From Myxococcota bacterium (GTDB lineage: Bacteria; Myxococcota_A; UBA9160; SMWR01): DNA of 64,000 bases. The DNA lies in the NCBI GenBank assembly GCA_039030075.1, contig JBCCEW010000012.1, forward strand, positions 62,001-126,000. The letters run 5' to 3'. The position numbers were made by a program, and so were the translations under genes. Each line of letters opens with the position of its first letter. The first letter of the stretch is position 1. The notes below the pieces were generated by a model. That model was not told the origin of the DNA. It saw only the letters and a program-made list of their open reading frames with translations, and ran no database searches. This document shows positions 49,408 through 50,631 of the stretch, piece by piece.

Positions 49408-50631
49408 TCAGCCGTTGCGGCGACGCTGACTCGCCTGGCGCTCGAGCTGGAACGACTTCCAGAAGAAGCGGGGGAGCCCCGCCGGGTTCTCCTTGAACTT
49501 CCGCCAGATCAAGCGCAGCAGGTGCTTCTCCATCCGCGTCGCGCTCTCGCGCTGCCCGTGCCCGCGGTGCATGCCGAGCGACGGCACGTCGATCACGTCG
49601 AGGGGCACGGTCAACGCCATCTTCTCGCTCTTCGGCGGGAAGCACATCTGGTCGTCGCAGGCCTGGTAACGGATGCCCACCTCGATCGTGACGTCGTCTT
49701 GATCGAGCGGGCGCGTCTCGCTGGCGAGCTCACCGACTGCGTAGAAGGGCACGACGAAGTCGACCTGCCCGCTCCAGACCGGGAGCTCGACGTCGATGCT
49801 CTCCATCCGCAGCGTCTCGGTCGGCGGCGCTTGCAGTTCTTCGAACACCAGGCCGGGCGGGCCCGAAACCTCGAGTGCGGTCGCCACCATGCCCTCGGGC
49901 ACCCCGTCCCCATAGATGTGGAGCCCCTCGCCGAGGTCGCAGCGCACCACCAGTTCGCGTCGGATGCCCTGGCGGATCGTGCCGCCGCCGCCGTGCACCT
50001 GCGCCGTGAAGCGGACATCGGCGTCGCCGCCGCTCGCGGCCGGTGCTTCGTCGGACAGGACGCGGCGGCCCAGCGCGGCGTCGAGGTAGAGCTCGGGGCT
50101 GTCGCGCTTCTTGTAGGTGTCGTGGAAGAACTTTGCGACGACGACGCCGTCCTCGTCGGTGACGTACACGCCGGGGTAGGGGATCCCGTGGAGGAAGGCG
50201 TCCTCGACTCCGATCTGGTCGTTCAAGATGCCGTAGCGACGGATGACGGCAGAGTCGACGTCGGAGAGCAGCCGAAAGGGAATCCGCTGCTTCTCCTGGA
50301 AATCGGAGAGGACCCCGGTGTCGTCGTAGGAGATCGCGTAGACCTCGATCCCTTCCGCTTCGAACTTCCCGAAGGCGTCTCGCAGCTCACCGAGCTGCGT
50401 CCAGCACGGAGGTCACCAGACGGCGGAGCGATAGAAGACGACGATCGACTTCTTGTTGCCGCGGCTCGCGTGGTAGTCGACGGACGTTCCGCTCGCATCG
50501 GGCAGCGTGAAGTCGGGAAGACGCTCCCCCACTTCGGGGCCCGTCGGGTGCCCGTCGGGCAAGCCCAGGCGCCCCGGGTGGCCCAAGGGTGCCGGAGCGT
50601 CGAAGCCGTGGTGATCGCGTTCGATCGTCAT
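49408..50631 (-). CDS. probable selenoprotein: UxxC peroxiredoxin-like domain fused to DsbD-alpha-like domain
   Basis: Read through an in-frame TGA (50415-50413) as selenocysteine, the protein is 407 aa. N-terminal residues 35-72 match AhpC/TSA-type redoxins (GERLPDFTLPDASGTSVDYHASRGNKKSIVVFYRSAVW), and the TGA is residue 73 in W-U-P-P-C-W, exactly where CxxC/WCPxC occurs in relatives. The frame is open on both sides, and the later residues fit (LRDAFGKFEAEGIEVYAISYDD...IPFRLLSDVDSAVIRRYG). From about 190 the protein resembles the DsbD N-terminal alpha domain (IRYQACDDQMCFPPKS). An 8-bp stem with GGU loop starts 14 nt after TGA (SECIS-like). ATG 50631 has GGAGGAG upstream. TGA also serves as final stop. 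Confidence 0.75.
50381..50399 (-). ncRNA. SECIS-like hairpin downstream of the in-frame TGA
   Basis: On the minus strand, CGCAGCTC-GGT-GAGCTGCG forms a perfect 8-bp stem with a three-base GGU loop. The loop starts 22 nt after the TGA, within the spacing expected for bacterial SECIS elements, which need a short upper stem and a loop G/U near the apex for SelB. It lies inside the coding sequence, as bacterial SECIS elements do. Confidence 0.65.

Follow-up and report, generated by a model that had tools for sequence, protein, structure and literature searches.

The question raised by this locus is whether a hairpin found shortly after an in-frame TGA acts as a bacterial SECIS element or simply reflects the codons in which a conserved peptide is written. 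The gene comprises 407 codons on the minus strand of the window (the whole stretch of 64,000 nucleotides that was analysed; gene at 49408..50631), with its ATG at 50631, a TGA at codon 73 and a terminal stop TGA at 49410-49408. The internal TGA (50413..50415) would specify selenocysteine (Sec) as residue 73 in the motif W-U-P-P-C, and is followed, on the same strand, by a 13-nt spacer (50412-50400) and by the stem-loop CGCAGCTC (50399-50392), GGT (50391-50389) and GAGCTGCG (50388-50381). Counting from the TGA, the 14th nucleotide is the first of the stem, and the gap between TGA and loop measures 21 nt; the 8-bp stem, the GGU loop and the starting point are exactly as the preliminary description had claimed. 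The hairpin is encoded within the conserved peptide TQLGELR, and its apical loop reads GGN across the close family and GUN where Gly81 is replaced by Val. On the evidence of sequence comparison we are highly confident that it represents a bacterial SECIS element recoding the UGA as Sec in a fusion of an AhpC/TSA-like and a DsbD-N-like domain.

Translation with TGA as U yields one uninterrupted frame that agrees with full-length orthologues and carries both Pfam domains, AhpC-TSA and DsbD_N. The AhpC/TSA (Prx-like) domain (residues 34-166, 50134..50532; PF00578, 2.8e-30, 105 bits against a Pfam cut-off of 26) holds U73 and C76 of the active-site UxxC (W-U-P-P-C), and its AF2 model is similar to AhpE, Bcp and ResA. 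The DsbD N-terminal-like domain (residues 224-339, 49615..49962; PF11412, 9.3e-8) was detected in 17/17 aligned members and contributes C325 and C330, which together with U73 and C76 form the invariant redox residues. The product is probably a thiol/selenol redox enzyme. The canonical Sec peroxiredoxin motif (PxxxTxxU) was not found in the protein, which reads AVWU and lacks Thr three residues before U; because TxxU is absent and the predicted structure points to AhpE-, Bcp- and ResA-like proteins, the enzyme seems more likely to be a disulfide reductase or an atypical peroxidase than a classical peroxiredoxin. The end of the upstream gene (51800-50628, minus strand, ~390 codons), which is glutathione S-transferase-like, overlaps the selenoprotein gene at its beginning in the sequence ATGA, an arrangement that suggests translational coupling. 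Among 28 homologous loci a close copy of this neighbour was seen only in L022, where it is 58% identical and flanks the gene on the opposite side, and a weak one in L025.

Taken as a single copy in a GC-rich window, the hairpin is modest evidence. A perfect stem of at least 8 bp that follows the bSECIS rules for loop and spacing accompanies 0.9% of the TGAs that the window contains in any frame (981 in total), the rate at random positions is 0.45%, and the same stem returns in 3% of recodings of the protein that follow local codon usage; the remark in the preliminary description that a stem alone means little in such DNA was thus well founded. The minimum free energy of the 46 nt is -15.2 kcal/mol (-13 for the centroid, which is mostly the SECIS hairpin), average for the composition when compared with shuffles (z = 0.15). 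An Rfam scan of the whole window returned no match above cut-off, a result that says little on the hairpin. These figures leave room for the view that the hairpin is an unselected by-product of TQLGEL being conserved and written in GC-rich codons, of which CAG CTC ... GAG CTG are self-complementary, even if the UGA is still read as Sec: the 3% of recodings and the ordinary stability of the single sequence both fit that view.

The orthologues speak against it. A protein search of GTDB genomes gave 28 loci, and a second search, over 282 genomes of the phylum (Myxococcota according to the named records among the matches), gave further ones; removal of duplicates left 49 distinct orthologues, with one distant homologue (L078) set aside. 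Records assigned to Gamma- and Alphaproteobacteria (L031-L038, L042, L043, L045-L049) nest at several places in the gene tree, which suggests repeated horizontal transfer or misassigned bins. A perfect 8-bp stem was found in 38 of the 49 orthologues against 1.4 expected from their own codon usage, and a stem of at least 7 bp in 46 of the 49 against 8.5 expected, counts that are not independent trials since the orthologues are related, so that other columns of the same genes make the fairer control. The exceptions include one clade of five orthologues with a C-U mismatch at pair 3, and L046, L079, L151 and L152, in which the closing pair is lost and the loop becomes 5 nt long. For the fairer control, codon sharing between pairs of orthologues was compared with each gene's own usage at 160 columns whose amino acid is conserved. 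The codons of the hairpin (78-84) rank 1, 2, 3, 4, 10, 11 and 38 of the 160 in synonymous conservation, and the strongest 7-codon window of the whole gene begins exactly at codon 78, so that the peak falls precisely on the stem. Codons 74-76 of the spacer (50400..50412), whose length is shared by the register-21 Sec homologues and paralogues, show no synonymous constraint. The hairpin had been put forward as a second feature independent of the Sec call; this held for synonymous codon choice, which could be tested separately, and not for the peptide, because the hairpin is written in the conserved codons of TQLGELR and is therefore not wholly independent of the protein.

Besides the orthologue stems and synonymous conservation, both the 5' arm CGCAGCUC (50392..50399) and the 3' arm GAGCUGCG (50381..50388) are supported by covariation. 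Pair 5 joins the third base of Gln79 to the first base of Leu83, and in four orthologues (L086, L097, L098 and L100) G-C has become A-U by a compensatory double change of the codons CAG/CTG to CAA/TTG; one further orthologue has A-C (L058) and one G-U (L035). On the maximum-likelihood tree the A-U state needs three changes, and well-supported branches force this number; the changes could in principle include losses. L097 uses CAA at just 1 of its 14 other Gln codons, yet has CAA/TTG in the stem, a choice hard to reconcile with a mere by-product. Between subfamilies 5 of the 8 pairs have changed on both sides. In a test set of 25 distinct sequences, hand-picked for variants so that its counts show spread and not frequencies, the covariation score was 0.313 against 0.132 in shuffles (0/500 as high; no correction for relatedness), and did not exceed 0.081 once the partners were slid. 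In a larger set of 56 distinct register-21 homologues 95% of the cells were paired, compared with 46% or less after sliding. Compensatory change, which serves as a criterion for SECIS elements, was thus observed in the tree-mapped A-U changes as well as between subfamilies, and the homologues with a conserved TGA do carry a hairpin at equal distance, both points on which the first reading of the hairpin could have failed.

The paralogues tell the same story. The same genome contains three more Prx-like UxxC genes with an in-frame TGA (L110, L111 and L112, on contigs C37, C9 and C3 of G000, respectively). The C3 paralogue has the same hairpin as the window gene; the C9 paralogue has UCGAGCUG-GUC-CAGCUCGA, again 8 bp in the same register, in codons for the peptide VELVQL instead of TQLGEL, so that Gln and Glu are exchanged and the stem is still paired, a result not expected of a by-product of one particular peptide. 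In a third subfamily (YCVAELRRW) the SECIS-like hairpin is a different one, UGUCGCCG-AGUUR-CGGCGAUG, and its loop lies at +16. Across the order, Sec paralogues (n=41) have a mean stem of 7.7 bp, with at least 6 bp in 98%, compared with a mean of 4.7 bp and 41% for non-Sec paralogues (n=39), an imperfect control in which the aligned residue is Cys in only 12, most of the rest being classical Prx with Thr there. Distant paralogues had to serve as this control because no full-length Cys orthologue was found in the homologue searches. None of the 12 Cys paralogues combines a stem of at least 6 bp with a loop at +21. Some non-Sec Prx genes (TKEACGFRD; L165, L168, L170, L178 and L187) do have a hairpin, GGAAGCC-TGC-GGCTTCC, near the equivalent site; this 7-bp stem favours the by-product view and is a reminder that codon choice by itself can produce such stems. 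Weighing both sides, we consider it very improbable that the hairpin is an unselected by-product, a reading that the comparative statistics have already refuted.

A covariance model of the element, run over the 5.76-Mb genome, gave 4 matches at E < 1e-5, all of them in-frame UGAs of Prx-like genes and the next match only at 0.74; its training set included the window and two of the other matches (L111 and L112), so that only the match on contig C36 is an independent find. This match (L197, G000 contig C36, 34040-34077) points to an additional selenoprotein gene, VDWUPFTKARLVQLRD, with the hairpin CGCGGCUG-GUU-CAGCUGCG, of a subfamily in which Thr replaces the second Cys of UxxC. The genome is thus predicted to hold several selenoproteins.

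A different view would take the TGA as a true stop in a broken gene or between two separate proteins, and a reading with standard table 11 does terminate at 50413. Against this, TGA occupies the Sec codon position in 28/28 loci from the GTDB search and in 49/49 distinct orthologues, and each full-length match among the 282 phylum genomes has exactly one internal stop, which is TGA; the full-length orthologues, which span several bacterial classes, therefore all share this one TGA and its position. Moreover, coding conservation runs on past the TGA, with the residues behind it as conserved as the remainder, and the TGA occupies the position of the active-site Cys (WUPPC). A true stop is accordingly extremely improbable, and the orthologue comparison already excludes it. 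Genome-wide reassignment of TGA was considered as well and rejected, as the terminal stop of the selenoprotein gene is itself TGA and a tRNA-Sec is present. That the near-perfect inverted repeat is a DNA operator or transcription signal has a negligible chance of being correct, given that it lies ~230 bp inside the gene with no T-run after it, at a fixed distance from the TGA, and that paralogues have different palindromes in the same register.

Sec insertion at the hairpin would require the appropriate machinery, and the source genome has tRNA-Sec (anticodon UCA), SelA, SelB and SelD. SelD (L113, G000 contig C6, 73000-76000) lies within an open frame of 863 residues and has CGGC in place of Sec in its active site; the upstream part of the frame resembles a pyridine-nucleotide oxidoreductase, which makes it similar to the Ndh-SelD fusions described in PMC2398784. 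SelA was found in 26 of the 27 phylum genomes that bear the TGA form of the gene, with no match in the remaining gene-bearing genome G186 (85% complete) and none in G177, a genome with a distant Cys form, and in all 10 of the proteobacterial hosts that were tested, the match in one of them being split and under the cut-off. This co-occurrence is consistent with the use of Sec and is not strong proof of it, because SelA is frequent in the phylum (171/282 genomes). Together with the orthologue stems and the covariation, the machinery supports the SECIS reading made in the preliminary description; what the comparative analysis shows is the UGA, a hairpin that is conserved and covaries, and a genome equipped with the Sec machinery.

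SECIS elements of the E. coli fdhF type have a bulged U. The bSECIS rules, as given in PMC13188914, place the element in the coding region directly after an in-frame UGA, with an apical loop of 3-9 nt, an upper stem of 4-16 bp, a G at loop position 1 or 2 that is usually followed by G or U, a distance of 16-37 nt from UGA to apical loop and a minimum free energy of at most -7.5 kcal/mol. The hairpin of the window agrees with each of these sequence rules (3-nt loop GGU at 50389..50391, 8 bp, 21 nt, -15.2 kcal/mol), and a GGN or GUN loop is present in 54 of the 56 distinct register-21 homologues. It shares with that consensus the site next to the UGA, the 3-nt loop starting with GG, the 8-bp stem, the 21-nt spacing and the stable hairpin; nothing essential differs from the consensus, with the loop here at the 3-nt lower limit and the upper stem without a bulge. 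The Prx-like thiol:disulfide oxidoreductase selenoproteins (PF00578; called 'Prx-like 1' by the GOS study PMC2398784 and included in Table 1 of PMC13188914) likewise combine AhpC/TSA with UxxC; the protein differs from them by an additional DsbD-N-like domain at its C-terminus, which brings a second pair of Cys. No separate entry for a Prx-like/DsbD-N fusion was found in the available parts of the selenoprotein catalogues PMC13188914 and PMC2398784. Weak similarity to the SelL-related redox protein (NCBIfam NF040769) extended over the redox domain, and membership was rejected, the 37 bits being far under the curated cut-off of 120 bits.

If the hairpin is indeed a SECIS element, we infer that SelB binding, actual Sec insertion and redox chemistry would proceed as follows. 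As the UGA at codon 73 arrives at the ribosome, SelB with GTP and Sec-tRNA(Sec) would bind the stem-loop 21 nt downstream, chiefly via the G[G/U] of the loop, and Sec would be delivered at the UGA rather than termination by release factor 2 taking place. The product would be the Prx-like/DsbD-N fusion with its U-P-P-C redox motif, in which the selenolate of U73 probably attacks a peroxide or disulfide, C76 would resolve the selenenylsulfide and electrons may be relayed by the C325/C330 pair in the DsbD-N-like domain.

Both the element and the protein class are already known; the fusion to DsbD-N and the apparent absence of Cys forms are less ordinary. We tentatively suggest that the Prx-like/DsbD-N fusion may be an uncatalogued and apparently Sec-only family, in which the sequence of the active-site helix co-evolves with the SECIS element (the Gln/Glu swap between TQLGEL and VELVQL). 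Standard gene calling cuts the genes of this family short at the TGA. With the present analysis a Sec call made by eye is now statistically supported, and the locus provides a clean case of covariation for a bacterial SECIS element within coding sequence, where codon constraints on the stem normally make it difficult to demonstrate.
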